51,134 bases of DNA from Clostridium sp. (lineage in GTDB: Bacteria > Bacillota > Clostridia > Clostridiales > Clostridiaceae): assembly GCF_016650035.1 (NCBI RefSeq), contig NZ_JAENWM010000018.1, positions 1-51,134 of the forward strand. Reading direction: 5' to 3'. Both the position numbers and the translations under genes were made by a program. Under the pieces are notes generated by a model, which was not told the origin of the DNA, searched no databases, and saw only the letters and a list, made by a program, of their open reading frames with translations. Of this stretch, positions 6,733 through 47,353 are shown in pieces; position 1 is the first letter of the stretch; each line of letters starts with the position of its first letter.

Positions 6733-7812
6733 ATGAAAAACAGAATTTTATTAACATCTAAAACTGAGGATAATATAAAAGCACTATATAATTATTATGA
6801 AAAGAATATTAAAAAAAATCGACCTGATATTATAGTTGAATATAGTAGTTTTTATAAGTATAGAAACGTGAAAATTCTACACTATCTTATAAGAGCAAGT
6901 CAAATGTTAAAGAATTATTCTGTTGTTGTTTCTGATTATACAAGTAGCGTTTTTTCTAAGGCTCGTAATGGCGTTTATATGAGTCATGGGTATGGAACCA
7001 AAAAATCTCCAGGGAAAAATGAACTGGGTAATAAAAAAGATATGGATATGTATAAGGGTATCAGAACTAACATAAAAAATGTAGTAACGCTTTCGGAAAG
7101 AGACAGCACGTATTTTTTAAGATCTCCTGAACTTGATAAAAGCCCTTACCCAAATTATATGCCCCTTGGATTACCAAGGAATGATATGCTATTTGACGCA
7201 GAAGGTATTTCTGCCTGTAGAGAAAAATTTGATATCAAATATAATAGTAAAGATAAAAAAATTCTATTGTTTTGTCCAACTTGGAGAGGATACAAAATAG
7301 ATAAGGAATTCCCTTTTACTTCAGAAGACTGGATGAAACTTGATAAGTTTATGGGAGAGAATAACTTTAAAATGATTTACCGTCCTCACTATTTTGAGAG
7401 ATTAATAGAGGATAAAGTTTTTGATGATATGAAGAACATTGTAACCATAGATTTTGATGAACAAATGTCCACTCAAAGTATCCTTGCGGTAACTGATATG
7501 CTGCTCACTGATTATAGCTCAATTTATGTAGACTACTTATCACTAAACAGACCAATTTGTTTCTTACCATATGATAAGCTACAGTATGATGAAGTGCGAG
7601 GATTAGCTATAGATTTTACCAATAACTTAGATACACCGGGTCCTAAACTCGCGTGCATAGATGATTTAATAAATTATATGAAAGATACTTACAATGATGA
7701 CAAATATATAGATATTAGAAAAGCTTCACAAAAAAACTTCTATCAGTACTTAGATGGGAATAGCTGTCAAAGGATCTGGGATTTAATATTAGGTTTTGTA
7801 GATGAAAAATAG
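6733..7812 (+). CDS. CDP-glycerol/CDP-ribitol phosphotransferase (TagF/TarL-like), cassette copy A
   Basis: A 359-residue soluble GT-B-type enzyme of the CDP-glycerol glycerophosphotransferase family, which transfers alditol phosphate from a CDP donor to a lipid-linked or growing polymer at the inner membrane face. Visible signatures are SHGYGTKK with His85, MIYRPHY (RPH 217-219) and LLTDYSSIYVDY (257-268). GGAGG precedes the ATG. It is followed 13 bases later by tarI and then tarJ, so ribitol phosphate is the likely unit. It is shorter than full TagF proteins, which carry an extra N-terminal domain. A second copy at 43089 is about 85% identical by eye. Confidence 0.88.
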   Translation: MKNRILLTSKTEDNIKALYNYYEKNIKKNRPDIIVEYSSFYKYRNVKILHYLIRASQMLKNYSVVVSDYTSSVFSKARNGVYMSHGYGTKKSPGKNELGNKKDMDMYKGIRTNIKNVVTLSERDSTYFLRSPELDKSPYPNYMPLGLPRNDMLFDAEGISACREKFDIKYNSKDKKILLFCPTWRGYKIDKEFPFTSEDWMKLDKFMGENNFKMIYRPHYFERLIEDKVFDDMKNIVTIDFDEQMSTQSILAVTDMLLTDYSSIYVDYLSLNRPICFLPYDKLQYDEVRGLAIDFTNNLDTPGPKLACIDDLINYMKDTYNDDKYIDIRKASQKNFYQYLDGNSCQRIWDLILGFVDEK

Positions 7813-7825
7813 GAGGTAGATATTA

Positions 7826-8536
7826 ATGAATATTGCTATTATACTTGCAGGTGGAAAAGGTACTAGAATGGGTATAGTTGATCAACCTAAGCAATTTATT
7901 GATATATATGGTAAACCAATAGTTGTACACACTATTGAAGCATTTGATATACATGAGCAAATAGATGCAATAGCTGTGGTTTGCCTTAAAGAATGGCATG
8001 AAGATATAAAGATTTGGACTAGAAAGTTTGAACTTAATAAAGTAAGATGGATAGTTGACGGTGGAGAAACAAGACAGGAATCCGTTTTAAATGGTCTAAG
8101 GGCAATTGAGGAAGATGTAAAACCTGACGATATTGTAGTTATTCATGATGCTGCAAGACCATTAATTTCCCATAGGATAATAGTTGGAAACATTGAAGGA
8201 GCCAAGGAATATGGTGCAGTAGATACTGTTATTCCTACGTCTGATACTATAATTCAAAGTGTTGACGATAACACTATATCTTCAATACCTGTGAGGAAAG
8301 AATTGTACATAGGGCAAACTCCTCAAAGCTTTAAATACTCAACTATATATGATGCTCATAAAAGTGCAGCTAAATCGAAACTTCAAGATTCTACTGATGA
8401 CTGTAGATTAGTACTTAATTATGGAGAAAAAGTTCATCTAGTGGCAGGAGACAAATTGAATTTTAAAATTACTACAATGGAAGATTTACTTCTATTGAAA
8501 TCAATAATTAAAATGAGTAAATTGGAGAGAATATAA
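7826..8536 (+). CDS. tarI: D-ribitol-5-phosphate cytidylyltransferase (TarI), cassette copy A
   Basis: A 236-residue IspD-fold nucleotidyltransferase. The CTP-binding loop is AGGKGTRMG (8-16) with Lys22 in PKQF, and HDAARPLIS carries Asp108. IspD enzymes have the same fold and signature; TarI is preferred because the gene overlaps tarJ by TAATG and follows a CDP-alditol phosphotransferase gene. It would make CDP-ribitol from ribitol-5-phosphate and CTP. The second copy at 44182 differs at only seven residues. Confidence 0.9.
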   Translation: MNIAIILAGGKGTRMGIVDQPKQFIDIYGKPIVVHTIEAFDIHEQIDAIAVVCLKEWHEDIKIWTRKFELNKVRWIVDGGETRQESVLNGLRAIEEDVKPDDIVVIHDAARPLISHRIIVGNIEGAKEYGAVDTVIPTSDTIIQSVDDNTISSIPVRKELYIGQTPQSFKYSTIYDAHKSAAKSKLQDSTDDCRLVLNYGEKVHLVAGDKLNFKITTMEDLLLLKSIIKMSKLERI

Positions 8537-9585
8537 TGTTAACTAGAGGTTTTAAAATAGTTCAATCTAAGAGATTTGAAGTTTACATAGAAGACTTAGA
8601 AGTAAATGTAGGAGATGCAGTAGTAAAGATTGATACAGCAGCTGTGTGTAAAGCTGATTTAAGATATTATCTAGGTACTAGAGACGCTCGAACACTTGAT
8701 CTTAAATATCCAATAAACCTAATACATGAGGCTATAGGAACAATAGTTAAAGATCCTTCCAATACTTTTGAAAAGGGAGATAAAGTTGCCCTAGTGCCAA
8801 ATATTATGCCTTTAGCCCAGAATCAAGACGAGAGTGAACAAGCTTTGCGCGCAAATAAAAGACTAGGAGAAAACTATTCACCTAAGGCGCTATTTGCATC
8901 AAGTACTTATAATGGATACTCTAAGGATTATATTGCATATCCAGCCCGCAATCTTGTTAAGATAGAAAATAGTATTGACTCTAATATCGCAGTGTTTTCA
9001 GAACTTATTTCTGTGGCGAATACAGCAATCCGTAGAATAGTATTAAAAGATGAAGATGTTGTAGGTATTTGGGGCGACGGGATACTAGGGTATATATTAT
9101 GCTGTGTACTCAAACAATTGCATAATGGGCCTATTATAGTGATAGGACATAATAGTGAGAAACTAGATATGTTTGAAGGGGTAGAAACACTCCTATCCAG
9201 TGATCCAAGCATTAAAAAGAAAAGCATTAATGTTGCTTTTGAATGTATTGGTGGCATAGCGGCACAAGGTGGAATTGAACAAATTTTGAGCACTGTAATC
9301 CCAGGGTCTAAATTAGTTTTAGCAGGAGTATCAGAAAATCCTGTAGAAATTAATACCCGCAAGATATTAGAAAAGGGACTAGCAATTTATGGAGTTACAA
9401 GGAGCAACGTAGAAGATTTTAAGGTTGCAGCAAGGTTACTTAAAAAAACGGATTTTAGGTCAGATATTTCGAAACTAATTATAGATGCAGAACCTATCTA
9501 TGGAATTAAAGATTATTATAGAGTATTCGAGGCAGAAGCAGAAAGCAAGAGGCTTGGGAAACATATTATGAATTTCAAATTTTAA
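8536..9585 (+). CDS. tarJ: Ribulose-5-phosphate reductase (TarJ), cassette copy A
   Basis: A 349-residue medium-chain dehydrogenase, NADPH-dependent in characterised TarJ proteins, which reduces ribulose-5-phosphate to the ribitol-5-phosphate used by TarI. The N-terminal zinc-site region has AVCKADLRYYLG; the Rossmann segment is GIWGDGILGYIL. The ATG overlaps the tarI stop codon by one base, implying translational coupling. The copy at 44892 differs at about 19 residues. Confidence 0.88.
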   Translation: MLTRGFKIVQSKRFEVYIEDLEVNVGDAVVKIDTAAVCKADLRYYLGTRDARTLDLKYPINLIHEAIGTIVKDPSNTFEKGDKVALVPNIMPLAQNQDESEQALRANKRLGENYSPKALFASSTYNGYSKDYIAYPARNLVKIENSIDSNIAVFSELISVANTAIRRIVLKDEDVVGIWGDGILGYILCCVLKQLHNGPIIVIGHNSEKLDMFEGVETLLSSDPSIKKKSINVAFECIGGIAAQGGIEQILSTVIPGSKLVLAGVSENPVEINTRKILEKGLAIYGVTRSNVEDFKVAARLLKKTDFRSDISKLIIDAEPIYGIKDYYRVFEAEAESKRLGKHIMNFKF

Positions 9586-9602: not shown

Positions 9603-10979
9603 ATGAATATAAAAAAAGCACTTAGAGTAATATTTGTAGATTTTTTAGGGTTATTAATTGGTGTGTTAGGTGGACTTTTGCTACCTAAAATTTTTGATAA
9701 ACCATCATATGCTTATTTAAAGACATTTACCTTGTATATTTCATATGCAGGGATGTTTCATTTTGGATTTTCAGACGGATTGTATTTAATATTAGGTGGA
9801 AAAAATATAACAGACATAAAAAAAGAGAAAATAAAAGGCTATTTCTATACTCTGCTAAAGATGGTAATGATTGCAGAAGTCGTGTTATTTGCTATTTCAA
9901 TGTTTGTTGTAAAAGATATGATATTCAAATATTTTGTTATCTACATACTACCGTTTCAGGTTGTGTTATTTGTATCTCTTTTATATAGGGCTACAGGTGA
10001 GTTTAATAAATACATGGTAATTAGAATAGCTGTTAATGTACTAAATCTAGCTTCGATTCTTACAGTGGTATTAATAATAAAATCCCCACTTGCGTTTATG
10101 AGAGTTCAAGTTATTGGATATATGGTTATAGCTATTACTTGTGGAACGCTAATTGTCTTGTCTACTAAAAAGACAGAAAAAATCAAATTTTCAGAAGTGA
10201 AATCTATAACAACAATGGGTTTTACTATAATGATAGCAAACGCAGTAAGCCTTCTATTTGTTACTATGGATAGGTGGTTTGTAAAAATAAAATTTACAGT
10301 TGATGATTTCGCCGATTATTCCTTTGCGGTTTCAATGTTAAGCTTATTTATTGTTTTAATAAATTCAGTTACAATTTTATTTTATCCATATTTGGCAAAG
10401 AATACTGGGAACCCTAAGGTCGTCTCGAAGGTTAAAAAATATATCATATTAATATGTAGCTACGCACCGGCGGGTTTCTTTGTATTGGAATTTATAACAA
10501 GAGGCTACCTACCTAAATATGTACCATCCCTAGAAATACTGGGAATTCTAATAGTAGGTATACCATTCATTACCTTAACAAATGTTTTGTATGCAAATCT
10601 TTATAAAGTCGGCAAAAGGGGTAAGGAGTATTTAATTGTAGCCACTAAAATGGTAGCATTGGCATTTGTTTTAAATGCATTTGCAGCATATGTATTAAAA
10701 GATCCTGTACAAATTGCATATGCTACACTTGTTACATTAGTTGTATGGTATGTATATTCATCAAAGGATTTTAAGGGACTTGAAATACACAGAAATGAAA
10801 TAATCCATTTTATAGTATATATTTTGTGTTATAGAATAATTAAAATAATTCCCTTCCCACCATTAATTAAAGCGGTTATGTTTATCATTAGTATGTTGAT
10901 TTCAGAATACATATTATTTAATGGTGAGATAAAAGATATTATGTTGTTGATTTTTCATAAAAAAAACACTGAGTATTAG
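9603..10979 (+). CDS. Polysaccharide flippase (Wzx/MATE-like), cassette copy A
   Basis: A 458-residue polytopic membrane protein with about 12-14 hydrophobic segments and the layout of polysaccharide biosynthesis (Wzx-like) exporters. Recognisable landmarks include HFGFSDGLYLILGG near the N-terminus and ITTMGFTIMIANAVSLLF in the middle. It starts 17 bases after tarJ behind AGAGGA and ends the cassette just before a strong terminator. It probably flips the lipid-linked repeat unit containing ribitol phosphate. It is the most diverged member of the duplicated cassette (roughly 70-75% identity by eye to the copy at 45959). Confidence 0.85.
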   Translation: MNIKKALRVIFVDFLGLLIGVLGGLLLPKIFDKPSYAYLKTFTLYISYAGMFHFGFSDGLYLILGGKNITDIKKEKIKGYFYTLLKMVMIAEVVLFAISMFVVKDMIFKYFVIYILPFQVVLFVSLLYRATGEFNKYMVIRIAVNVLNLASILTVVLIIKSPLAFMRVQVIGYMVIAITCGTLIVLSTKKTEKIKFSEVKSITTMGFTIMIANAVSLLFVTMDRWFVKIKFTVDDFADYSFAVSMLSLFIVLINSVTILFYPYLAKNTGNPKVVSKVKKYIILICSYAPAGFFVLEFITRGYLPKYVPSLEILGILIVGIPFITLTNVLYANLYKVGKRGKEYLIVATKMVALAFVLNAFAAYVLKDPVQIAYATLVTLVVWYVYSSKDFKGLEIHRNEIIHFIVYILCYRIIKIIPFPPLIKAVMFIISMLISEYILFNGEIKDIMLLIFHKKNTEY

Positions 10980-10990: not shown

Positions 10991-11032
10991 AGAATCCTTG
11001 CATAAGGTATATGCAAGGATTCTTTTATTTTA
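10991..11032 (+). terminator. Strong rho-independent terminator after the tar cassette
   Basis: A perfect 14-bp stem, agaatccttgcata (10991-11004) with tatgcaaggattct (11010-11023), a five-base loop, then TTTATTTTATT. Confidence 0.92.
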
Positions 11033-11355: not shown

Positions 11356-11386
11356 TTAAAAAAAGTGCCCTTTTAAGGGGCACTTT
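11356..11386 (-). terminator. Terminator of the reverse-strand islet
   Basis: aaagtgccc (11362-11370) and gggcacttt (11378-11386) form a 9-bp stem. On the minus strand it follows the DUF2922 stop codon and is followed by a U-run. Confidence 0.85.
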
Positions 11387-11387
11387 C

Positions 11388-11624
11388 CTAAGCTACATCA
11401 ATTATACTAGTATCAGTAGTAACTACCTTAGCATCTTTCTTGCCAATTGAGTTCCCATTAGCTGATTCAAAGATGTTCTTTGCGATGATTAAATCCATAA
11501 GAGCATTTACCTCAGATTCTGTAATAGTTGGAACTCCATCTCCGTCAGCTTTGATATCATCTACAGTTAACGTGAAATACTTACCTTCTGTTTCTGTTAA
11601 AAATCTCATAACTAATTTATGCAT
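11388..11624 (-). CDS. DUF2922 family protein
   Basis: A 78-residue protein with the DUF2922 pattern: a KLVMRFLTETEGKYFTLTVDD beta-strand start, then VPTITESEVNALMDLIIAKNIF. It is preceded by AAAGGAGGA and lies 48 bases downstream of the DUF1659 gene. These two families commonly occur side by side in Firmicutes, often with a YvrJ-like gene and a sigma factor. I see no YvrJ gene here. Function unknown. Confidence 0.85.
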   Translation of the reverse strand: MHKLVMRFLTETEGKYFTLTVDDIKADGDGVPTITESEVNALMDLIIAKNIFESANGNSIGKKDAKVVTTDTSIIDVA

Positions 11625-11672
11625 ATCACTTTTCCTCCTTTAAATTATTTGATCTGGATACTTTAAATACGC

Positions 11673-11897
11673 TTATTCCATAACTAAGTTGACCTCATCT
11701 TCTCTGTCTAGTCTGAATAATGGATAAGTTTTGAGACTAGAGATAGCTTCTCCAACAGCAAAAATGTCCTCGTCCACTGCTGCAACTTTTAGATTACTTA
11801 ATCTCTTTGTTGCATATTTGTCTTTACCTGCGCTGTCAACGCCTACCTTCATAGTAAGTTTTAGCGCACTGGCTACCTTTGTTGATACAACTGCCAT
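11673..11897 (-). CDS. DUF1659 family protein
   Basis: A 74-residue protein matching DUF1659: N-terminal hydrophobic/beta region, KYATKRLSNLKVAAVDEDIFAVGEAI-type core, and a C-terminal FRLDREDEVNLVME-like strand. GGAAGGAG precedes the ATG. It is co-directional with the DUF2922 gene and downstream of a sigma-factor gene, a recurrent clostridial arrangement of unknown purpose. Confidence 0.85.
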   Translation of the reverse strand: MAVVSTKVASALKLTMKVGVDSAGKDKYATKRLSNLKVAAVDEDIFAVGEAISSLKTYPLFRLDREDEVNLVME

Positions 11898-11983
11898 TTA
11901 AATCACTCCTTCCTTCATTTTGTTTTCATTAAGTATATATGTCCTTTAAAAGTTTTGTGCGAAATTTATTGAAATACATGGAT

Positions 11984-12517
11984 TTATATAAGTGCCTTTA
12001 GTTTTTTTAGGGCTTTTTTCTTAAGTCTTGCAAATTGATGGTAACTTTTATCACTATCACAAGCTATTTCTCTAAGGGATTTGTCCAAAATATAGTATTT
12101 TTCTATTATTTCTCGCTCTAATGGATCTAGTGTAGCAACCGCCACGTACAATTTTTTCACTTCATCGTATGCTATAACCTCATCCTCTAAGGTAAACTCA
12201 TAATTACCTGAACGATCCAAGTCTAGCATATCAATAGTGGGAACTTCTCTAAAATGTTTTATCTGTCCTTTTAGAAGTGCTTTATAGTTCATTTTTATGG
12301 CATTGATACAATACCCGTTAAAGCTGTTACTACCTAGCTTGTACATATCTATGGCTTTAATAACTGACAAATACCCGTGTTGTACTAGATCTGATGTATC
12401 ATAGCTTGGGATGTGATATCTTGTAGATTCTTTGAATATGAAATATTTAAACTTTTCTATTATTTCTTCTGTAGCTCCGAACTCTCTAGCTTTAGCCTTT
12501 TGAATAAGTTTTTCCAT
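11984..12517 (-). CDS. Sigma-70-family RNA polymerase sigma factor
   Basis: About 177 residues from the preferred ATG at 12517, which has AAGGTGGTG six bases upstream; an in-frame ATG at 12550 would add 11 residues and overlap the preceding stop as TAATG. Region 2 is visible as TSDLVQHGYLSVIKAIDMY, and region 4 as LDPLEREIIEKYYILDKSLREIACD with a helix-turn-helix ending. It is the size of phage-type or ECF-like sigma factors and may direct transcription of this islet or of a relative elsewhere; its target promoters are not evident. Confidence 0.82.
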   Translation of the reverse strand: MEKLIQKAKAREFGATEEIIEKFKYFIFKESTRYHIPSYDTSDLVQHGYLSVIKAIDMYKLGSNSFNGYCINAIKMNYKALLKGQIKHFREVPTIDMLDLDRSGNYEFTLEDEVIAYDEVKKLYVAVATLDPLEREIIEKYYILDKSLREIACDSDKSYHQFARLKKKALKKLKALI

Positions 12518-12549
12518 ATTGTGCACCACCTTTAATTTATTTAACTCCA

Positions 12550-13458
12550 TTATTCTAAATCATTGTCCATATGTCCTAATAACTTTTTTTCTAGGTCATC
12601 AAAATCATAAGTTCTTTGTTCGTAATCGCAGAAACTACCTTTTTTAACGTTTTGAGTGTGATTACTAGTATTTTTACTTACCCACTTTTTTTGATATGCT
12701 TTTACTTCATCACAAGTTGTTATGCCAAGACTTATCCAGCTGCTTAAGATTTTAGAAATATATTTAATGGTCCGTGCATCGTATTTTACAGCCTCTTCTA
12801 TTGCCATAATAATAACTTCGCTAGGCACATGGTTTGTAAACTCTAATATTTTTTCATAGTCTAGTGAAGTGATAGCAGGTACATTTTCTTCGAATATTTT
12901 AATTACTTCTTCTATTTCTTTTTTATTTATTACTTCTTCCTTTTTACTTATTACTTCTTCTCTTTTACTTACAAGGACCTTGCAAGCCCCTTCGGATTTT
13001 TTTATATTTGTATTTTTCAAAATATTTTCAGAACTATCCTTAAATTTAAAGTTTTCAAAAATTTTATCTACATCTAACCCAATTTCCTGGCATTTGTTAA
13101 ATAGTACTTTAACAAATGCCTTATTCTTAACTTTTAGTAATTCTTTTTGAATACATTTTACGGTGTTAATACTTCGAGGAACATTGTATTTTATCCAATT
13201 AATAACCATAAGCTCTTTGGTTTCATCACAATATAAGATTTTTTTGTAGTCACAGAATCTTTGAATTAGTTTTTCTACAGTTTCTCTGTTGTATCCGCAA
13301 TCTGTCTCAATAGTTATTTGAGAAATTTCGTAAATTCCAGACTGCGTTGATTTTGGATTAGATATTAGGTACAAATAGAAGTATTTCTCCTCTGGAGTAA
13401 GTTCAAGTACAAAGCTATCGCTCCAGAACTCTGTATAAAGCTGTCTATATTTTGCCAT
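12550..13458 (-). CDS. DnaD-like replication initiation protein
   Basis: A 302-residue protein. The N-terminal winged-helix-like region (KYRQLYTEFWSDSFVLELTP, then YFYLYLISNP and SGIYEIS) is typical of phage and plasmid replication-initiation proteins of the DnaD group. The middle is a low-complexity run rich in Glu, Val and Lys. The C-terminal part (ILSSWISLGITTCDEVKAYQKKW) has the DnaD-domain signature. AATGGAGGAATAA precedes the ATG. In phages such proteins help load the helicase; here it suggests that the islet descends from a prophage or integrative element. Confidence 0.78.
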   Translation of the reverse strand: MAKYRQLYTEFWSDSFVLELTPEEKYFYLYLISNPKSTQSGIYEISQITIETDCGYNRETVEKLIQRFCDYKKILYCDETKELMVINWIKYNVPRSINTVKCIQKELLKVKNKAFVKVLFNKCQEIGLDVDKIFENFKFKDSSENILKNTNIKKSEGACKVLVSKREEVISKKEEVINKKEIEEVIKIFEENVPAITSLDYEKILEFTNHVPSEVIIMAIEEAVKYDARTIKYISKILSSWISLGITTCDEVKAYQKKWVSKNTSNHTQNVKKGSFCDYEQRTYDFDDLEKKLLGHMDNDLE

Positions 13459-14064: not shown

Positions 14065-14931
14065 ATGAAAGGTGTTATTTTAGCTGGTGGTTCTGGTACA
14101 AGACTATATCCAGTAACAAAAGTAGTTTCTAAACAAATATTGCCAATATACGATAAGCCGATGATATATTATCCATTGTCCGTATTAATGCTTGCAGGTA
14201 TAAAAGAGATATTAATTATAACAACACCAAGAGATGTAGTTACTTTTGAAGAGTTACTAGGTGATGGAAGTGATATAGGGCTTAAACTACAATATGCTGT
14301 TCAAGAATATCCAAGAGGGCTTGCAGATGCATTTATAATTGGAGAAAGTTTCATAGGGAATGATAAGGTAGCATTAGTACTTGGAGATAATATTTTTCAT
14401 GGTTACGGGTTTACTGAAAGATTAATGAGGGCATCACAAAGAGAAGGAGCAACTATATTTGGCTACCATGTAAGTAATCCTAATGAATTTGGTGTTGTTG
14501 AATTTGATAAAGATAATAACGTAGTATCTATAGAGGAAAAGCCTAAAAATCCAAAATCAAACTATGCGGTTCCAGGCCTATATTTCTACGATAACGATGT
14601 AATAGATATAGCCAAAAATGTTAAGCCTTCGGTTAGAGGCGAAATAGAAATTACAGCAGTGAATAATGAATATTTAAGTCGAGGAAAGTTGAAAGTTGAG
14701 CTCTTTGGAAGAGGGATGGCATGGCTAGATACAGGAACTCATAGAGGACTCCTGGATGCGGCTAACTTTGTTTACGCTATTCAAACTAGACAAGGATTAT
14801 ATGTAGCTTGTATAGAAGAGATAGCTTATAGAAAAGGATTTATAGATCGAGAGCAAATTTTGAAATTAGCAGAACCGTTAGTGAAGACAGAATATGGTAA
14901 ATATTTAATGCAAATTGCTTATGAGGAGTGA
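14065..14931 (+). CDS. rfbA: Glucose-1-phosphate thymidylyltransferase
   Basis: A 288-residue enzyme making dTDP-glucose from dTTP and glucose-1-phosphate, the usual length for RmlA. The nucleotide loop is GGSGTRLYP (8-16), followed by [26 protein letters not shown] and the sugar-binding [19 protein letters not shown] segment are intact. First gene of a new plus-strand operon with its own promoter; rfbB follows with an overlapping ribosome-binding site. Confidence 0.96.
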
Positions 14932-14938
14932 AATAATC

Positions 14939-15970: not shown

Positions 15971-16055
15971 TAGATGAAGAGCTATGGTATGAAAACTTAT
16001 TAACTGTAAATATTACTTGTGTTTTGTAATCATTATATATATCCTTAGTATAGAG

Positions 16056-16075
16056 ATTTAACAAAATTGTTAAAT
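16056..16075. repeat. Perfect dyad upstream of the O-antigen ligase gene
   Basis: atttaacaa and ttgttaaat arms separated by two bases. A second, weaker dyad (acaaaat/attttgt) follows at about 16080-16103. It may be an operator; it lacks the GC content of a terminator. Confidence 0.4.
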
Positions 16076-16127
16076 TAAACACAAAATCATCAAAATAATT
16101 TTGTAATATTCCAAATGAGGTGGCAAA

Positions 16128-17375: not shown

Positions 17376-17387
17376 GTTGAATTTAAA

Positions 17388-17425
17388 AAAATGATTGTCT
17401 CATAATTAGGGACAATCCATTTTGT
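17388..17425 (+). terminator. Terminator-like hairpin after the ligase gene
   Basis: aaaatgattgtc (17388-17399) pairs with gacaatc-c-atttt (17411-17422, one bulged base), with a T-rich tail. Confidence 0.6.
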
Positions 17426-17578
17426 TTTAGAGGGGGATTTCGGGTAACTGAAGGTTGTAATAAAGTGTCTTAAAATATATAATGGTGTATGATGTGTAAA
17501 CAAAAGTTATAAGTATATAATAAAAATGAGAATCGTATATAGACTGTGTAAATAGGGTTGTTTGGGGGAGATAGAAAG

Positions 17579-18766: not shown

Positions 18767-18814
18767 AGACATTGATAATCTTAGACAAAAATTGATCGAA
18801 GATAGGGTGAATAT

Positions 18815-20101: not shown

Positions 20102-20137
20102 AAGACAAAACTATTCATATCAGAATGGAGATTTATT

Positions 20138-21661: not shown

Positions 21662-21676
21662 ACTAGGAGGAAAGAT

Positions 21677-22747: not shown

Positions 22748-22763
22748 AAAAGGAGTGAAAGTT

Positions 22764-23756: not shown

Positions 23757-23767
23757 AATATAACATA

Positions 23768-29679: not shown

Positions 29680-29680
29680 G

Positions 29681-30451: not shown

Positions 30452-30545
30452 GCGAAGAAAAAGTTAGAGAAATACATTGTCTTTTATTGTGTTAGTGGTA
30501 AACTAAAGGCATGTGTAATTCATAAATGTAGGGGGTACAAACCAT

Positions 30546-34237: not shown

Positions 34238-34261
34238 CAAACAATAATGTAGGAGGTTCTT

Positions 34262-34840: not shown

Positions 34841-34894
34841 ACCTTACAATTATAAGCATGAGTGGAAAGTAGTTTCTGCTATGAAGGAGAAGAT

Positions 34895-35803: not shown

Positions 35804-35820
35804 GAAGGGTGGATAATAGC

Positions 35821-37032: not shown

Positions 37033-37056
37033 AATACAATATTGGAGGAGATACAT

Positions 37057-38100: not shown

Positions 38101-38122
38101 TTTAAGAAGGTAGGTGTAAATT

Positions 38123-39232: not shown

Positions 39233-39237
39233 AAATC

Positions 39238-40362
39238 ATGAAAAAACTTAAGGTAATGACAATACTCGGAACAAGACCTGAGATAATAAGATTATCTGAA
39301 GCTATAAAAGCTTGCGACATATATTTTGATCATATTCTTGTACATACAGGCCAAAATTGGGATTACACACTTAATGATGTTTTTTTTAAAGAATTAGAAC
39401 TTAGAGAACCTAATTATTTTTTAGGAGTAGTAGGAAATAATCTTGGGGAAACTATTGGTAATATAATATCAGAAAGTTATAAAATATTACTCAAAGAAAA
39501 ACCAGATGCATTACTAGTACTAGGTGATACAAACAGCTGTCTAAGTGTCATTGCTGCTAAAAGACTAAAGATTCCTATATTTCATATGGAAGCAGGAAAC
39601 AGATGTTTTGATCAAAACGTACCAGAAGAAATAAACAGGAAAATAGTAGACGTTACTAGCGATGTTAATATGGCATACACAGAGCATGCGAGAAGATATT
39701 TAATATCAGAAGGAATAAGAAAAGAATATACTTTTGTTACTGGCTCACCACTTCCAGAGGTATTCCATAGATACATGAATCAAATTGATGAAAGCGACGT
39801 ATTAGAAAAGTTAGGCCTTGAAAGTGGTAAATATATTTTAGTAAGTGCTCATAGAGAAGAAAACATAGATAACAAAGAAAACTTTAAGAGCATAACTGAT
39901 GCTCTAAATGCAGTTGCAGAAACGTATAATATGCCAGTTATATATTCAACTCATCCAAGAAGCTGGAAAAGAATTGAAGAAAGTGGAATTGTTTTTCATA
40001 AAAATATAAAGCAACTAAAACCATTTGGTTTCTATGATTACAATAAACTTCAAAAAGAATCCTTTTGCGTATTATCTGACAGTGGATCACTGGCAGAAGA
40101 GTCTAATATTATGGCGTTCCCAGGAGTTTCAATAAGAACTAGTACTGAAAGACCAGAAGCTATAGATAAAGGTTCGGTAATACTGGGTGGAATAACTCTT
40201 GATAGCATAACTCAAGCTATTGAAGTAATAACATTACAAAAGACACTAGGTGAGAAAACTGTTAAAGCACATGATTATACAGATATTAATGTTGGTATGA
40301 AGGTTGTTAATATTATTCAAGGGTATACAAGTGTAGTTAACAAGTTTATATGGAGGAAGTAA
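39238..40362 (+). CDS. capG: UDP-sugar 2-epimerase (CapG/FnlC)
   Basis: A 374-residue non-hydrolysing 2-epimerase of the WecB family. VMTILGTRPEIIRLSEAI, VLGDTNSCLS, HMEAGNRCFD, SAHREENI and SDSGSLAEES are all present. In this position it produces UDP-L-FucNAc in the last step of the pathway. It starts 5 bases after capF with GGAGG overlapping its end. Confidence 0.93.
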   Translation: MKKLKVMTILGTRPEIIRLSEAIKACDIYFDHILVHTGQNWDYTLNDVFFKELELREPNYFLGVVGNNLGETIGNIISESYKILLKEKPDALLVLGDTNSCLSVIAAKRLKIPIFHMEAGNRCFDQNVPEEINRKIVDVTSDVNMAYTEHARRYLISEGIRKEYTFVTGSPLPEVFHRYMNQIDESDVLEKLGLESGKYILVSAHREENIDNKENFKSITDALNAVAETYNMPVIYSTHPRSWKRIEESGIVFHKNIKQLKPFGFYDYNKLQKESFCVLSDSGSLAEESNIMAFPGVSIRTSTERPEAIDKGSVILGGITLDSITQAIEVITLQKTLGEKTVKAHDYTDINVGMKVVNIIQGYTSVVNKFIWRK

Positions 40363-40428
40363 TTAAGAAAAATATGGTCAAAACAATTATGAGTTTCACT
40401 TATTATTTAATGAATTGAGGAGAATAAG

Positions 40429-41559
40429 ATGGTAAAAACGATTTTTATAAATGTAACAGCAGCAGAGTATGGCGGAGCTTTAACTATACTAAAAAGTGTA
40501 CTAACTGACATCTCACAAAAGGATAACACAAATTTGTATTATGTTTTCACGTCTATTGATTTAGATGAATTTGAAACAGATAAAATTAAAATCATAAATA
40601 CAATTAAAGGCAAGAAGAGTAGGAAGAGATGGGATAGGATGTTATGGGATTTTAGAGGGTTAAAGAAATGGTCTTCTGATAATGACATTTATGCTGATAT
40701 AATTTTATCATTGCAAAATACTGGTGTTAATTATCTTAAAAATACTTTGCAAATTATTTATATTCATCAATCCTTGCCCTTCCAAACGCAGTATAAATGG
40801 AGTTTTTGGAATAAAGAGGAAAGAATTTGTTGGATATATCAAAATATCTACCCTTTTTTTATAAAGCGTTTTATTACTCAAGATACTATTATAATAGTGC
40901 AACAAACATGGCTGAAAAATAAGGTATTTGCAAAATTTTTTATAGATAAGAATCGTATTAAAGTAATTCCGCCTAAACTAACACTTCCAAAGGTTGTATT
41001 TGAAAAAAATTATGTAAGTAAAGAGGATAAAAATAATATAATATTATTTTATCCTGCTTCTCCATTTATTTATAAGAATCATACTATTATAATTAATAGT
41101 CTTATTAAAATAAAGAATGAAAATATAAATTATTATTCAAGATTACGAGTATATTTCACAGCAAAACTTGAGCAACTTTCAAAAGATGATGCGAAAAAAA
41201 TAATTGATAATTCGCTTAAGAATATAATATTTTTAGGAACAGTAAAGCCATCTCAAATGGTGGAGTATTACAATAAATGCAGTTGTCTTATATTTCCTAG
41301 TTATATTGAAACTTTTGGGTTACCGTTATTGGAAGCTGCATCATTAGGTAAAAAAATAATCTGCTCAGATACAAGTTTTTCAAGGGAAATCTTAGATGAA
41401 TACCAAGGAGTTATATTTTTAAAATATAATAATGAAGATGACTGGGTTAATGAGATATACAATTTAGATAGTTATATTGAAAAAAAATACCAGTATATAT
41501 ATAAGGCTTCAAAAGATTATGACTCGGTATATGATTTATTAGAAAAATATTTTAAATAG
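40429..41559 (+). CDS. GT4 glycosyltransferase
   Basis: A 376-residue GT-B enzyme. N-terminal INVTAAEYGGALTILKS and YIHQSLPFQ (acceptor-side His), then C-terminal FLGTVKPSQMVEYYNKC and FPSYIETFGLPLLEAASLGK with the GT4 E-x7-E donor-binding motif. GAGGAG precedes the ATG. It presumably adds one sugar to the lipid-linked unit; donor unknown. Lower GC and long A/T runs compared with capEFG suggest a different origin. Confidence 0.85.
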   Translation: MVKTIFINVTAAEYGGALTILKSVLTDISQKDNTNLYYVFTSIDLDEFETDKIKIINTIKGKKSRKRWDRMLWDFRGLKKWSSDNDIYADIILSLQNTGVNYLKNTLQIIYIHQSLPFQTQYKWSFWNKEERICWIYQNIYPFFIKRFITQDTIIIVQQTWLKNKVFAKFFIDKNRIKVIPPKLTLPKVVFEKNYVSKEDKNNIILFYPASPFIYKNHTIIINSLIKIKNENINYYSRLRVYFTAKLEQLSKDDAKKIIDNSLKNIIFLGTVKPSQMVEYYNKCSCLIFPSYIETFGLPLLEAASLGKKIICSDTSFSREILDEYQGVIFLKYNNEDDWVNEIYNLDSYIEKKYQYIYKASKDYDSVYDLLEKYFK

Positions 41560-41739
41560 TAACAAAAACATCTAACACCTATATGTTATTCATATTGAAA
41601 TTATTATTGCTAACACTATATAGCTAGTACAAAAAGTACTGAGGTATAAATATCTTCTTTATATAAAATAGGGAGATAAAATGCTTAGTATAATAGGCGA
41701 ACTATTTTAGAGTAAAGGCAAACAAAGGAGAACAACTCA

Positions 41740-43047
41740 ATGAATTTTCTTTTATCATTTCATAAACGTTTTTGGGTTATTGAAACTATCTGTTTATTAC
41801 TAATTGGTACTGTAGTTTTGTTTTATTTTCAGATGTTTTCTATGAGTATTGCTCTATCAGAAATAATCTCTATTGGAGTATTTATTGGATTGTTTATTTA
41901 TCGTGGTATTTATAAACATGATTATATTTTTCCGGCTTTCTCAAAACGTATATTTGGGGCACTATTTATTTTTGGAATTTATTACATTATACTTTCGGGT
42001 ATACGGTTAATACTGCATTTACCAGTTTTAGATTCATCGTGGTCAATAAGATCAATAATGTTTGGTTCAGCGATTTTTTTTATAATGGATGAATACAAAC
42101 CAAAAGTAGACTTGCTATTAATTGGAGCAATAATTGTTTTTTCTGCATTAAATACACGGGAATTAATTGATTGTTTTAGATTTTCCGATATTCGCTCATT
42201 GAAATTTTTGAATAATATAAATATATATGTCTACGTATGTATTATGCTTATTCCTTTTGCGGTATGGGCAATAAAACAAGGTAAGCAAAAGTCATTACCA
42301 TCATTTATTTCCACGATTGCATATGCAAATATGGGAACGAGTATGGTTATTGCATTTCTTTCTGGGGGCCGCTTAGGCTGGTTAGTTATGGGAGCGGTAG
42401 TGGGAGCATCATTTCTTTTGATATTTGGTTATAAGTGGAATTCATTTAAACTGATTTTATCATTTATGATAGTATGTATTTTTGTTACTATAATTGCTTC
42501 ATCGCTAAATTTCAAGCAATCTCGTAGTAATGTATATAGATCATTTTCTGTTATTCTAACTAAGATACCTGGGCTATCGGATCATGAATCTGTGGGTAAG
42601 AAAGAAGTTATTGCAACTACTGATGCAAGTAATAATATACGGAAAATATACTGGGAGAGGGGATGGAACTTAATAAAAAAGAGCCCTATTCTTGGACCTG
42701 GTACATACGGTGTAGCATATAAGCAAATATCGCCTACAGAAAGGTTGCCACAGCCTGCCCATAACTTCATACTTGAAGCTTGGATGGGATGGGGATTGAT
42801 AGGCTTAATATTATACTTAATAGGTTTGTTTTCTGCCTTTTATTATGTAATAGTGAAATTAAAGAACATTCCAAAGCCAATGCGGTTTTGTTGTCTTATT
42901 CCTATTAGTGCATCAATCGTCGTAAGTTTGTTTCAACCTTTTATGCCTTTACTTTTTCCACCAACATATATCATGTGGTTTAGTCTGGGGTTTGCAGCAG
43001 TGGCAGATCACTATTATAAGCCCGGAGAAACTAGTAACCACAACTAA
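41740..43047 (+). CDS. O-antigen ligase/polymerase family membrane protein
   Basis: A 435-residue polytopic protein with the Wzy_C pattern: FLSGGRLGWLVMGA in a membrane segment and the outer-loop ILGPGTYGV and PAHNFILEAWMGWGLIG with the conserved His. About 11-12 hydrophobic segments. It lies 180 bases after the glycosyltransferase gene, with no strong terminator between. As the last gene before the second tar cassette it could polymerise the L-FucNAc-containing unit or ligate it to a surface acceptor. Confidence 0.83.
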   Translation: MNFLLSFHKRFWVIETICLLLIGTVVLFYFQMFSMSIALSEIISIGVFIGLFIYRGIYKHDYIFPAFSKRIFGALFIFGIYYIILSGIRLILHLPVLDSSWSIRSIMFGSAIFFIMDEYKPKVDLLLIGAIIVFSALNTRELIDCFRFSDIRSLKFLNNINIYVYVCIMLIPFAVWAIKQGKQKSLPSFISTIAYANMGTSMVIAFLSGGRLGWLVMGAVVGASFLLIFGYKWNSFKLILSFMIVCIFVTIIASSLNFKQSRSNVYRSFSVILTKIPGLSDHESVGKKEVIATTDASNNIRKIYWERGWNLIKKSPILGPGTYGVAYKQISPTERLPQPAHNFILEAWMGWGLIGLILYLIGLFSAFYYVIVKLKNIPKPMRFCCLIPISASIVVSLFQPFMPLLFPPTYIMWFSLGFAAVADHYYKPGETSNHN

Positions 43048-43088
43048 TTTTTGGGGGATATACATCACAAATTAAGGAGAGAATAACT

Positions 43089-44168
43089 TTGAAAAAAAGA
43101 ATATTATTAACATCTCAAACTGAGGATAATATAAAGGCTTTGTATAATTATTATGAAAGAAATATTAAAAAAAATCGGCCTGATATTATAGTTGAATATA
43201 GTAGTTTTTATAAGTATAGAAACATTAAAATTCTACACTATATTATAAGAGCAAGTCAAATGTTAAAGAATTATTCTGTTGTTGTTTCTGATTATACAAC
43301 TAGTGTTTTTTCTAAAGCTAGAGATGGTATTTTTATGAGCCATGGATACGGTACTAAAAAGACTCCAGGAAATAATGAAGTTAATAATGAAAAAACAATG
43401 GATATATTTAAGAATATCAGAACTAACATAAAAAATGTAGTAACGCTTTCAGATAGGGACAGTACATATTTTTTAAGATCCACTGAACTTGACAAAAATC
43501 CGCTTCCTAATTACATGCCACTTGGATTACCAAGGAATGATATGTTATTTGACGGGGAGTATATTTCTACCTGTAGAGAAAAATTTGATATCAAATATAA
43601 TACTAAAGATAAAAAAATCCTGTTATTTTGTCCAACTTGGAGGGGTTATAAAATAGAAAAGGAATTTCCTTTTACAGAAGTTGATTGGTTAAGGCTTGAT
43701 AAGTTTATGGGGGAGAATAACTTTAAAATGATTTATCGGCCCCACTATTTAGAGAGACTAATAGATGATAAGGTCTTTGATGATATGACGAACATTGTAA
43801 CCATAGATTTTGATGAACAAATGTCCACTCAAAGTATCCTTGCAGTAACTGATATGCTACTCACTGATTATAGCTCAATTTATGTGGACTATTTAGTGTT
43901 AAATAGACCAATTTGTTTTTTGCCATATGATAAAGTACAGTTTGATGAAGAGAGAGGCTTAGCTATAAATTTTACTAATGACTTAGATACACCAGGTCCT
44001 AAGTTAGAGAACATGGATGATTTAATAAATTATATGAACGATACTTACAATGATGACAAATATATAGACATTAGAAAAGCTGCTCAAAAAAACTTCTATA
44101 GTTTCCTAGATGGGAATAGCTGTAAAAGGGTATGGAATTTAATAATAGGTTTTGTAGATAAAAAATAG
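43089..44168 (+). CDS. CDP-glycerol/CDP-ribitol phosphotransferase (TarL-like), cassette copy B
   Basis: A 359-residue paralogue of the protein at 6733: same length, no gaps, about 52 substitutions by eye (roughly 85% identity). The SHGYGTKK, YRPHY and LLTDYSSIYVDY motifs are unchanged. It starts with TTG instead of ATG, after AAGGAGAG. Differences cluster in residues 80-165 and at the C-terminus, leaving the CDP-alditol binding core intact, so both copies should be active. Confidence 0.87.
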   Translation: MKKRILLTSQTEDNIKALYNYYERNIKKNRPDIIVEYSSFYKYRNIKILHYIIRASQMLKNYSVVVSDYTTSVFSKARDGIFMSHGYGTKKTPGNNEVNNEKTMDIFKNIRTNIKNVVTLSDRDSTYFLRSTELDKNPLPNYMPLGLPRNDMLFDGEYISTCREKFDIKYNTKDKKILLFCPTWRGYKIEKEFPFTEVDWLRLDKFMGENNFKMIYRPHYLERLIDDKVFDDMTNIVTIDFDEQMSTQSILAVTDMLLTDYSSIYVDYLVLNRPICFLPYDKVQFDEERGLAINFTNDLDTPGPKLENMDDLINYMNDTYNDDKYIDIRKAAQKNFYSFLDGNSCKRVWNLIIGFVDKK

Positions 44169-44181
44169 GAGGTAGATATTA

Positions 44182-44892
44182 ATGAATATTGCTATTATAC
44201 TTGCAGGTGGAAAAGGTACTAGAATGGGTATAGTTGATCAACCTAAGCAATTTATTGATATATATGGTAAACCGATAGTTGTACACACAATTGAAGCATT
44301 TGATATACATGAGCAAATAGATGCAATAGCTGTGGTTTGCCTTAAAGAATGGCATGAAGATATAAAGATATGGACTAGAAAATTCGAACTCAATAAAGTA
44401 AAATGGATAGTTGACGGTGGAGAAACAAGGCAGGAATCCGTTTTAAATGGTCTAAGGGCAATTGAGGAAGATGTAAAACCTGACGATATTGTAGTTATTC
44501 ATGATGCTGCAAGACCACTTATTTCACATAGGATAATAGTTGGGAACATTGAAGGAGCTAAAGAGTATGGTGCAGTAGATACTGTTATTCCTACTTCAGA
44601 CACTATAATTCAGAGTGTTGACGATAACACTATATCTTCAATACCTGTGAGGAAAGAATTGTACATAGGGCAAACTCCTCAAAGCTTTAAATATTCAACT
44701 ATATTAGAGGCTCATGAAAGTGCAGCAAAATCTAATCTTCAGGATTCTACTGATGACTGTAGATTAGTACTTAATTATGGAAAAAAAGTTCATCTAGTAA
44801 CAGGAGATAAACTAAATTTTAAAATTACTACAATGGAAGATTTACTTCTACTGAAATCAATAATTAAAATGAGTAAATTGGAGCGAATATAA
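44182..44892 (+). CDS. tarI: D-ribitol-5-phosphate cytidylyltransferase (TarI), cassette copy B
   Basis: A 236-residue near-duplicate of the protein at 7826 with seven differences, four of them in a short stretch around residues 175-190 and none in the CTP loop or HDAARPL. The upstream 13 bases, including AGGAGG, match copy A exactly. It overlaps the following tarJ by TAATG as in copy A. Confidence 0.9.
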   Translation: MNIAIILAGGKGTRMGIVDQPKQFIDIYGKPIVVHTIEAFDIHEQIDAIAVVCLKEWHEDIKIWTRKFELNKVKWIVDGGETRQESVLNGLRAIEEDVKPDDIVVIHDAARPLISHRIIVGNIEGAKEYGAVDTVIPTSDTIIQSVDDNTISSIPVRKELYIGQTPQSFKYSTILEAHESAAKSNLQDSTDDCRLVLNYGKKVHLVTGDKLNFKITTMEDLLLLKSIIKMSKLERI

Positions 44893-45941
44893 TGTTAACT
44901 AGAGGTTTTAAAATAGTTCAGTCTAAGAGATTTGAAGTTTACATAGAAGATTTAGAAGTAAATGTAGGAGATGCAGTAGTAAAGATTAATACAGCGGCTG
45001 TATGTAAAGCCGATTTAAGATATTATCTAGGTACTAGAGATGCTCGAACACTTGATCTTAAATACCCAATAAATCTAATACATGAAGCTATAGGAACAAT
45101 AGTTAAAGATCCTACCAATACTTTTGAAAAGGGAGATAAGGTTGCCCTAGTGCCAAATATTATGCCTTTAACTGAAAATCAGGACGAGAGTGAACACGCA
45201 CTATGTGCAAATAAAAGACTAGGAGAAAACTATTCACCTAAGGCATTATTTGCATCAAGTACTTATAATGGATACTCTAAAGATTATATTGCATATCCAG
45301 CCCGCAATCTTGTTAAGATAGATAATACTATTGACTCTAATATTGCGGTGTTTGCAGAACTTATTTCTGTGGCCAATACAGCAATTCGTAGAATAGTATT
45401 AAAAGATGAAGATATTGTAGGCATTTGGGGTGATGGGATACTAGGGTATATATTATGCTCAGTGCTCAAACAGTTACATAAGGGACATATTATAGTGATA
45501 GGACACAATAAAGAGAAACTAGATATGTTTGAAGGGGTAGAAACACTTCTAGCCAGTGATCCAAGCATTAAGAAGAAAAAGATTAATGTTGCTTTTGAAT
45601 GTATTGGTGGCATAGCTGCACAAGGTGGAATTGAACAGATTTTGAGCACTGTAATCCCAGGGTCTAAATTAGTTTTAGCAGGAGTATCAGAAAATCCTGT
45701 AGAAATTAATACCCGTAAGATATTAGAAAAGGGATTAGCAATTTATGGAGTTACAAGGAGCAACGTAGAAGATTTTAAAGTTGCAGCAAGTTTACTTAAA
45801 AAACCAGATTTTAGATCAGATATTTCGAAACTAATCATAGATGCAGAACCTATCTATGGAATTAAAGATTATTATAGAGTATTCGAAGCAGAGGCAGAAA
45901 GTAAACAACTTGGGAAACATATTATGAATTTCAAATTTTAA
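44892..45941 (+). CDS. tarJ: Ribulose-5-phosphate reductase (TarJ), cassette copy B
   Basis: A 349-residue near-duplicate of the protein at 8536 with about 19 substitutions (roughly 95% identity). The CKADLRYY and GIWGDGILG segments are identical. The 17-base spacer to the flippase gene is nearly the same as in copy A. Confidence 0.88.
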   Translation: MLTRGFKIVQSKRFEVYIEDLEVNVGDAVVKINTAAVCKADLRYYLGTRDARTLDLKYPINLIHEAIGTIVKDPTNTFEKGDKVALVPNIMPLTENQDESEHALCANKRLGENYSPKALFASSTYNGYSKDYIAYPARNLVKIDNTIDSNIAVFAELISVANTAIRRIVLKDEDIVGIWGDGILGYILCSVLKQLHKGHIIVIGHNKEKLDMFEGVETLLASDPSIKKKKINVAFECIGGIAAQGGIEQILSTVIPGSKLVLAGVSENPVEINTRKILEKGLAIYGVTRSNVEDFKVAASLLKKPDFRSDISKLIIDAEPIYGIKDYYRVFEAEAESKQLGKHIMNFKF

Positions 45942-45958
45942 AGCAAAGAGGAAATTAA

Positions 45959-47353
45959 ATGAATATAAATAAATCACTTAGAGTAATATTTGTAGAGTTT
46001 TTAGGGATATTGATTGGCGTATTGAGTGCACTCGTGATACCAAAGGTTTTTGATATACAATCTTATGCTTATTTAAAGACATTTACACTATATATCACAT
46101 ATGCAGGAATGCTCCATTTTGGATTTTCAGATGGAATGTATTTAATATTAGGTGGTAAAGATATAACAGATATAAAAAGAGAGAAAATAAAAGGTTATTT
46201 CTATGTTATGTTAAAGATAGTAACAGCTGTAGTAGCATTGTTGATAGTCATATCAATATTTATTATAAAAGATATGGTGTTTAGATGTTTTGTATTTTAT
46301 ATCTTACCGTTTCAAGTTGTGTTATTTATTTCTCTATTATATAGAGCTACAGGTGAGTTCAACAAATATGTAGTAATAAGAATAGCGCAAAATATAGTAA
46401 ATTTAATATCTATTCTTGCAGTCATATTAATCATAAAGTCACCAATTTTATATATGAGGATTCAAGTTATTGGAAATATAGTTATGGCAATAGTTGGTGG
46501 AGCTATAATTATTTTTTCAACAAAAAAGGCAGAAAAAATAGGACACTTAGAAATAAAAGCAATAACAAGTATGGGTTTTACTATAATGATAGCAAATGCT
46601 GTAAGCCTTCTATTTATTACTTTAGATAGATGGTTTGTTAAAATAAAATTTACAGTTGATGATTTCGCATACTATTCTTTTGCGGTATCAATGTTAAGCT
46701 TATTTTTAGTTTTAATAAATTCAATTACAGTTTTATTTTATCCTTATTTAGCAAGAAACAAGGGAGATGCGAAAGTCGTCTCAAAAGTTAAAAAATATAT
46801 TATATTAATATGCACGTTTGCACCTGCTGGTTATTTTGTATTGGAATTTATAGTGAATAACTTTCTAAAACAATATACACCATCACTAGAAATACTAGGA
46901 ATATTGATAATTGGGATACCATTCATTACCTTAACAAATGTTTTGTATGCAAATCTTTATAAAGTAGGGAAAAGGGGCAAGGAATATTTAATTGTAGCCT
47001 CTAAAATGGTAGCATTAGCATTTATATTAAATGCATTTGCGACATACGTATTAAATAATCCCGTAATGATTGCATATGGAACACTTATTACATTAGTTGT
47101 ATGGTATATATATTCTTCATTTGATTTTGAAGGATTAAAAATACACAAAAATGAGATAATTCATTTTATTGTATATTTAGTTTGTTATCAAACAGTTAAA
47201 ATAATTCCTGTTCCATCATTACTTAAAGCATTTATGTTCTTAATAAGTATGTTAATTTCAGAATGCATTTTATTTAATTCTGATTTGAAATATATTATAT
47301 CTATGGTGAAGAATAGGAAAAACACTAAAGAAACCAAAAAACTTAAGAAATAG
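45959..47353 (+). CDS. Polysaccharide flippase (Wzx/MATE-like), cassette copy B
   Basis: A 464-residue polytopic protein, paralogue of the one at 9603 but much more diverged (roughly 70-75% by eye). Long conserved blocks remain, such as MGFTIMIANAVSLLF and DRWFVKIKFTVDDFA. The C-terminus is replaced by a Lys-rich tail (KKLKK). It may have been selected for a different lipid-linked substrate than copy A. Confidence 0.85.
   Translation: MNINKSLRVIFVEFLGILIGVLSALVIPKVFDIQSYAYLKTFTLYITYAGMLHFGFSDGMYLILGGKDITDIKREKIKGYFYVMLKIVTAVVALLIVISIFIIKDMVFRCFVFYILPFQVVLFISLLYRATGEFNKYVVIRIAQNIVNLISILAVILIIKSPILYMRIQVIGNIVMAIVGGAIIIFSTKKAEKIGHLEIKAITSMGFTIMIANAVSLLFITLDRWFVKIKFTVDDFAYYSFAVSMLSLFLVLINSITVLFYPYLARNKGDAKVVSKVKKYIILICTFAPAGYFVLEFIVNNFLKQYTPSLEILGILIIGIPFITLTNVLYANLYKVGKRGKEYLIVASKMVALAFILNAFATYVLNNPVMIAYGTLITLVVWYIYSSFDFEGLKIHKNEIIHFIVYLVCYQTVKIIPVPSLLKAFMFLISMLISECILFNSDLKYIISMVKNRKNTKETKKLKK

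Follow-up and report, generated by a model that had tools for sequence, protein, structure and literature searches.

Why does one genome keep two copies of the same surface-glycan cassette, and why have some genes of these copies stayed alike when others have drifted apart? The question is raised by the whole of contig C140 (51,134 bp; here, the window) of a Clostridium sp. draft genome, G000, which comprises 3.97 Mb in 167 contigs. This contig carries two direct, collinear copies of a cassette encoding a phosphotransferase (PT), TarI, TarJ and a flippase, termed c1 (6733-10979) and c2 (43089-47353), whose starts are 36,356 bp apart. The flippases of c1 and c2 are as distant from each other as those of different species; the middle genes are alike.

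Two collinear copies and their uneven divergence

Both copies lie on the forward strand and share one layout: a PT of 359 aa (6733..7812 in c1, 43089..44168 in c2), a 13-nt gap, a TarI of 236 aa (7826..8536 and 44182..44892), a TarJ of 349 aa (8536..9585 and 44892..45941) whose gene overlaps tarI by 1 nt, a 17-nt gap, and a flippase of 458 aa in c1 (flip1, 9603..10979) or 464 aa in c2 (flip2, 45959..47353). Coordinates, gene order, spacing and overlap, re-read from the sequence, are those reported in an earlier note on this DNA, and the identities which that note had judged by eye (about 85, 97, 95 and 70-75%) agree with the computed protein identities of 85.2% for PT (306/359), 97.0% for TarI (229/236), 94.6% for TarJ (330/349) and 72.8% for the flippase (338/464 columns). 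The corresponding codon-aligned nucleotide identities are 87.0, 94.9, 93.3 and 80.0%. Taken whole, the copies are 87.9% identical over 4218 ungapped nt, with a longest exact match of 113 bp and an alignment that is gap-free in 100-nt windows from 6733 to 10932. The similarity starts about 4 nt 5' of the PT start codon and fades near the flippase stop, so that the repeat consists of the genes alone. A search of the host's own genome found no cassette copy beyond c1 and c2, the third match being 104 bp at 72%.

For comparison we used a genus set of 17 genomes (G000 included; one of them only 51% complete), among them Clostridium bowmanii (G002), C. lacusfryxellense (G009) and C. psychrophilum (G010), which places the host in or near the psychrophilic C. 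estertheticum group. TarJ (E<=1e-30) is present in five of the 17, with two copies in G000 and one in each of four relatives (G002, G005, G009 and G010). Every relative is one genome of its species, and the comparison is silent on variation inside species.

Synonymous divergence (dS) between c1 and c2 is 0.49 in PT, 0.20 in TarI, 0.24 in TarJ and 0.61 in the flippase. As a yardstick, dS between G000 and G005 is 0.52 in gyrB, which was taken as reference gene because rpoB gave no match in G000, and 0.63-1.39 in the nine genes, of ten around c2, for which it was computable. Gene-specific rates were stripped from the c1-c2 values by dividing them by the average over all six pairings of the four single-copy relatives, giving 0.62 (interval 0.41-0.85) for PT, 0.30 (0.18-0.47) for TarI, 0.27 (0.19-0.38) for TarJ and 0.91 (0.70-1.16) for the flippase. 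By these intervals TarI and TarJ stand apart from the flippase, with PT between. The ratio of the highest to the lowest normalised value across genes is 3.34 for c1-c2, as against 1.11-1.88 in 14 other pairs that served as control. By this measure divergence is uneven beyond gene-specific rates, and c1 and c2 are mosaics; the contrast between TarIJ and the flippase is firm, that between blocks inside PT less so.

Within PT, normalised dS is 0.29 (0.08-0.71) in codons 1-75, 1.03 (0.60-1.75) in codons 76-229 and 0.42 (0.23-0.68) from codon 230 to the end, with 0.29 (0.22-0.37) in TarIJ. Segmentation of third positions placed breaks at PT columns 89/92, 224/227 and 686/689 and about 50 nt before the end of TarJ; the 130 PT columns that follow the first 89 are nearly identical (0.04 differing). 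Segmentation of all sites gave two breaks only, one some 37 nt short of the PT end and one 48 nt inside the flippase. The low-dS tracts end inside genes, as gene conversion would give, with exact ends that differ by segmentation. The longest run shared by the copies is longer than expected at third positions (p 0.03) and over all sites (p about 0.001).

In nucleotide trees c1 groups with c2 in PT, TarI and TarJ; for the alternative, c2 with G005, the approximately unbiased (AU) test gave a p of 1e-58 for PT, 0.0015 for TarI and 3e-54 for TarJ. The flippase of c2 has a dS of 0.42 to that of G005 and 0.61 to flip1, a difference whose 95% interval excludes zero, and in a tree rooted on a homologue from another family (G258; 42% identical) flip1 falls outside the other five flippases (ultrafast bootstrap, UFboot, 99). 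Rooted in the same way, c1 and c2 are joined in TarJ (UFboot 91) and, at only 56, in TarI; the rooted AU p for c1 outside is 0.099 in TarJ and 0.080 in TarI, both short of the 5% level. The most divergent flippase of the genus set, flip1 is unlike the consensus of the other five at 32 residues, compared with 6-14 for each other member. Its nonsynonymous divergence (dN) and dS are both elevated, which an old or foreign allele would fit as well as selection.

A probable old pair with later exchange, and the alternatives

The explanation that we favour, with a probability of roughly 0.55 for the whole of it, is an old pair of cassettes with later gene conversion. According to this explanation, c2 would be the resident copy, within a conserved glycan gene run, and c1 an extra copy, apparently stand-alone, amid mobile and repeated DNA. 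The divergence between them would once have stood at interspecies level; later recombination between c1 and c2 would have homogenised TarI, TarJ, the PT end and probably most of the first 75 PT codons, leaving the PT middle and the flippase unlike. Gene conversion as such is the likely cause, though not proven, and specialisation of the flippase and acceptor is a plausible hypothesis for why the ends have stayed different. Regular recombination has been reported within the C. estertheticum complex (PMC8996182). The earlier note had offered two explanations of the uneven identity, conversion in an old duplication and the acquisition of two related cassettes with specialised flippases, and had named uniform divergence and the presence of both copies with the whole interval in all relatives as signs against conversion and instability; divergence is uneven, and none of the 16 other genomes has two cassettes. 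The uneven normalised dS and the tract ends inside genes speak for the first of the two, with a younger duplication and imports as a less likely alternative to it.

Several observations weigh against an old pair with later conversion. The all-site segmentation leaves PT unsplit internally except near its end, and at third positions the first 89 PT columns are not young (0.35 differing, compared with 0.38 between relatives). The intervals of the PT blocks are wide and overlapping, and the block limits were picked only after the windows had been viewed. The MaxChi test, with p 0.001 over all sites, is not significant at third positions (p 0.16), and there is no fall of dN in the C-terminal part of PT. 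The homogenised tracts still stand at a dS of about 0.2, so that conversion, if any, was not recent. Neither direction of transfer is favoured, c1 and c2 lying at similar distances to G005 and one-sided shared residues being few (5 vs 6 in TarJ, 1 vs 4 in TarI). As for the flippase, the unrooted test prefers c1 with c2 (0.93) over c2 with G005 (0.07, not rejected), the rooted AU test does not reject c1 with c2 at 5% (p 0.076), and rooting with eight more distant flippases gave no resolution (p 0.43 vs 0.57).

A possible but somewhat unlikely alternative is that the whole cassette was duplicated later, at an age given by the TarIJ divergence, and that the flippase of c1 and the middle of PT were then replaced by imports from other species. 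The young blocks have similar normalised dS (0.29, 0.29 and 0.42), as a single duplication date predicts; different copies would have been struck, the outlier being c1 in the flippase and, in PT 76-229, c2 lying farther from G005 (1.32) than c1 does (0.77); and core recombination is reported as frequent in the C. estertheticum complex (PMC8996182). However, two imports are required, and the four cassette-bearing relatives include no donor for either tract. Moreover, c1 and c2 still pair against all compared relatives in the older PT tract (76-229), on a common deep branch with support of 98, so that for this tract imports are the less favoured reading and later conversion in an old pair the more favoured one.

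It is improbable that two related cassettes were acquired separately and exchanged nothing afterwards. The position of c1 in mobile, repeat-rich DNA with a hairpin of its own would suit such an origin, and cassettes do seem mobile as modules, standing behind RmlB-Wzy in G009 and G002 and behind CapEFG, a glycosyltransferase (GT) and Wzy in G005 and G010. Unlinked acquisition, however, predicts a single divergence over the whole cassette and is disfavoured by the uneven one; in TarIJ each copy is far nearer to the other than to any of the four relatives, yet flip2 is closer to G005. Very improbable is an assembly artefact, even though the window is an entire contig of a 167-contig draft and the copies share exact matches as long as 113 bp: a collapse would make the copies identical, and is ruled out by their non-identity and their unrelated flanks, while swapping of reads relabels copies and cannot reduce TarIJ divergence. 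Possible assembly error is limited to which flippase belongs in which context. Hardly credible at all is a simple duplication whose unevenness reflects gene-specific constraint only: TarI is indeed conserved in all species compared (87-93% aa identity), but normalised dS still differs threefold across genes, TarJ is 76-78% identical to other species and 95% between the copies, and normalised dS with the 14 control pairs rules out both chance and constraint.

Exchange by RecA has a threshold of a few tens of bases, and exact matches of up to 113 bp should permit it. The further proposal of the earlier note, that the direct repeats could mediate RecA-dependent loss or amplification of about 36 kb, found no data in its favour; the arrangement expected of a deletion (resolvase-side DNA, one cassette, GT2-GtrA) is present in none of the four single-cassette relatives, each of which has Wzy in front. 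One may speculate that loss or amplification of the 36 kb is possible.

Predicted functions and known systems

The PT, of the CDP-ribitol/glycerol phosphotransferase (TagF/TarL) family, matches Pfam PF04464 with E 5e-46 in c1 and 5.9e-47 in c2, and a profile of seven PTs matches TarL (8va1, E 1.9e-20), Cps3D and TagF in the PDB. Against the NCBIfam TarL model it reaches E 4.7e-20 but only 71.7 bits (cut-off 1000), over profile positions 275-557 of 562, which points to a shorter transferase, not TarL. Its matches among phage records number eight, each below 60% identity and none spanning 80% of the query. We considered the PT mosaic as an acceptor half and a donor half, roles that we take to belong to the two lobes, and dropped this reading: the older tract overruns the start of the C-terminal lobe (at about residue 140, from the TagF/TarL alignment), and dN shows no drop at the C-terminus. 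TarI appears to be a D-ribitol-5-phosphate cytidylyltransferase rather than IspD, scoring 254 bits against NCBIfam NF001183 (cut-off 166) and more weakly, 198.8 bits, against TIGR00453 ispD (cut-off 181.3), and the adjacent TarJ agrees. TarJ itself, with ADH_N and ADH_zinc_N domains and overlapping tarI by 1 nt, is predicted to be a ribulose-5-phosphate reductase of the zinc alcohol dehydrogenase family; three of its four best plasmid matches are annotated as ribitol-5-phosphate dehydrogenase (32-34% identity), and no NCBIfam model scored above its cut-off. The flippases, with about 13-15 hydrophobic segments (about 13 in flip1), are putatively assigned to the Wzx type. PF01943 (Polysacc_synt) is matched at E<=0.01 by five of the six aligned members (best 3.8e-8); flip2 scores 25.8 bits (E 8.4e-6), under the Pfam cut-off of 28.2, and flip1 has no Pfam match. 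Seven plasmid records match the flippases, all below 60% identity, with an oligosaccharide flippase annotation in three of the five listed. The AlphaFold model of flip2 has a mean pLDDT of 45.6, too low for use.

Judging from these families, TarJ and TarI would supply CDP-ribitol, PT would transfer ribitol-phosphate onto a lipid-linked sugar unit, the flippase would move the unit across the membrane, and the nearby Wzy would polymerise it. Each copy would then probably serve to finish Wzx/Wzy-type surface glycans with ribitol-phosphate. A bolder reading, which we regard as unlikely in full, is that the two modules finish two different glycans, their precursor enzymes being kept alike by recurrent conversion and the flippase and part of PT being shielded by selection, with c1 as a portable, separately transcribed module. 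If true, c1 would give a newly acquired glycan unit access to ribitol-phosphate as well as an export route of its own. Precursor-supply and substrate-specific genes of the same glycan cassette have had different histories in one genome here, a natural case that opens the question of whether flippase specificity guards paralogues from homogenisation.

Staphylococcus aureus exports its wall teichoic acid by an ABC transporter. The nearest precedent for the present duplication is the duplicated tarIJL of that species. Two tarIJL regions were found in all six genomes studied, the copies being highly homologous, though some of tarL and, in tarJ, a short C-terminal portion are less conserved; possible different functions of the two tarL were suggested (PMC1458327). 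The likeness lies in two cis copies of a ribitol-phosphate cassette in a wall-polymer region (PMC1458327). Unlike the S. aureus cassette, which by that account ends in the polymerase TarL and is duplicated in 6/6 genomes, the Clostridium cassette has a short PT and a Wzx-type flippase, and its two copies are 36 kb apart and occur together in 1/17 genus genomes. The duplication may work like that of S. aureus tarIJL, but with PT and flippase instead of TarL it is not the same system.

The pneumococcal teichoic acid genes for TarI, TarJ and the TacF flippase also couple CDP-ribitol supply with a dedicated flippase, in a locus that differs by its phosphocholine genes and LicD transferases; we know of no duplicated cassette there. 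The decoration locus of the enterococcal polysaccharide antigen (EPA) in Enterococcus faecalis V583 has a TarI homologue, a phosphotransferase, a Wzx-like flippase and a Wzy-like polymerase, and was proposed to build ribitol-phosphate-containing units (PMC7188991). It differs by its LicD-type transferases, rhamnan backbone, single flippase and single polymerase (PMC7188991). For the wall teichoic acid genes of Bacillus subtilis, exchange of whole cassettes and smaller regions by recombination has been described (PMC8753576); that exchange takes place between strains or species, the Clostridium case between two copies within one genome. No paper joining TarI, TarJ and gene conversion, and none on this PT-TarI-TarJ-flippase cassette, was found in the literature searched, and the terms 'teichoic', 'capsul' and 'sialic' are absent from the main text of the C. 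estertheticum complex comparison (PMC8996182).

Setting of the copies and the module in relatives

On the forward strand c2 lies in a glycan gene run (32366..50444) that we take as an operon, in the order WbpM, PglC, an epimerase, GT4, CapE, CapF, CapG, GT4, Wzy, c2, GT2-GtrA and a 640-aa membrane protein. Since the last two genes still follow c2, it lies inside the operon and not at its border. The stretch after c2 folds weakly (-8.2 kcal/mol), with no hairpin comparable to that of c1. Directly upstream of c2, the Wzy-type polymerase (41740..43047, +; PF04932) has a homologue (56-58% aa identity) before the cassette in G005, G002, G009 and G010; as Wzy precedes PT in all four relatives, the usual unit has five genes.

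The surroundings of c1 are different. Upstream lies mobile and repeat-rich DNA (26..6320) with an IS110 transposase gene (26-1282, 5.5 kb from c1), a gene for an AAA_14/DUF4143 protein, a serine resolvase gene (5760-6320 on the reverse strand, 0.4 kb from c1) and dispersed repeats. Short repeats at 2011-2182, 3769-4571 and 5534-5591, matches to which were listed from many genus-set contigs, are possibly a small mobile repeat. After c1 stands a terminator-like hairpin (10991..11023, +) with a 14-pair stem, -25.5 kcal/mol and T-rich tails on both strands; the terminator scan listed it on the reverse strand, and the forward tail was read directly. Terminator-like sites in the region number 5, not clearly above the 3.0 of shuffled sequences (sd 1.5), and promoter-like sites are no commoner than in shuffles, so that c1 as a stand-alone unit is a prediction. 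Of the earlier note's picture, in which two direct copies bracket a glycan island, the two copies hold and the bracketing needs amending, c2 lying inside its putative operon and c1 being apparently a separate unit. Neither Wzy nor other remnants of the genes at the relatives' locus were found beside c1 (3701-6740 and 10971-14070, E<=1e-3). The block between c1 and RmlA (11380..13458, reverse strand) holds small reading frames, seen by eye, and genes for a sigma-70 region 4 protein and a DnaB_2-domain protein; among the matches listed, parts of it recur in 17/17 genus genomes, often several times, at about 65-95% identity. The window has no RNA family at gathering score and no tRNA, and thus no tRNA integration site was seen.

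The intervening unit (14065..32048, +) encodes RmlA, RmlB, a Wzy, two unassigned proteins, a MurJ-like flippase, nonulosonic acid enzymes and a repeat protein, bringing the contig to three flippases and two Wzy. The MurJ-like gene (20138-21661) heads the nonulosonic acid set (20138-30451), presumably a legionaminic-type pathway, with a CBS-NTP transferase, LegB, LegC, PglD, NeuB, NeuC, two GFO/IDH/MocA oxidoreductases and NeuA. No close homologue of the nonulosonate genes was found in the 60-80 kb around the cassette of G005, G002, G009 and G010. Last in the unit, 30546-32048 encodes a secreted-looking protein of 500 aa, which matches no Pfam family above cut-off. In it a unit of about 110 aa is repeated four times in tandem, with 88-94% DNA identity to the reference copy. 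A hairpin at 32074-32117 (-30.6 kcal/mol) closes this middle unit and precedes the WbpM run.

Among the relatives, G005 and G010 have the order WbpM-PglC-epimerase-GT4-CapE-CapF-CapG-GT-Wzy-PT-TarI-TarJ-flippase, like the surroundings of c2, except for the GT between CapG and Wzy, which has no homology to that of the window at E 1e-10. The GT2-GtrA and 640-aa genes follow the cassette directly in G005 and about 24 kb on in G010. C. lacusfryxellense (G009) has the CapEFG-GT-Wzy run and GT2-GtrA farther along, without a second cassette, and G001 has WbpM and PglC at one end and GT2-GtrA with the 640-aa gene at the other, with different genes inside and no TarJ. The PT-TarI-TarJ-flippase module thus occupies different glycan loci among psychrophilic clostridia. 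A scan of the genome contigs with a single protein query found no relative, and one with an alignment query found four loci. C. bowmanii (G002) has in addition a lone PT (L034 17926-19023, contig C39), 72-78% identical in amino acids to the cassette PTs, with no TarI, TarJ or flippase alongside.

Beyond the genus, TarJ (E<=1e-50) is present in 13 of 391 genomes drawn from the class, G000 included, and three of the 12 others (G258, G178 and G044) were inspected. G258, of another family, has CapE-CapF-CapG-(398-aa protein)-GT-LicD-TarI-TarJ-flippase (LicD to flippase at L151 7551-11577), with identities of 42% for the flippase, 52% for TarJ and 69% for TarI. TarI, TarJ and flippase are therefore linked beyond this genus as well, and with a phosphotransferase from a different family, LicD, which is not homologous to PT, standing here in its place; these gene orders mark the module as an old one with an exchangeable phosphotransferase. 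G178 and G044 have TarI, TarJ and a weak PT match (27-28%); a flippase match (31%) lies about 8 kb away in G178, and none within the 13.7 kb of G044 sequence. At 14 family loci of distant flippases no PT, TarI, TarJ or Wzy2 was found at E<=1e-4 within about 1.5 kb on each side, a local negative, as G178 has TarI and TarJ some 8 kb off.

A second RmlA-RmlB pair of G000 (L116 12380-14408; contig C67 27379-29407), with 79% protein identity to the pair in the window, belongs to a different glycan locus, close to a homologue of the BrkB-family gene that precedes WbpM in G005, G010, G009 and G001.

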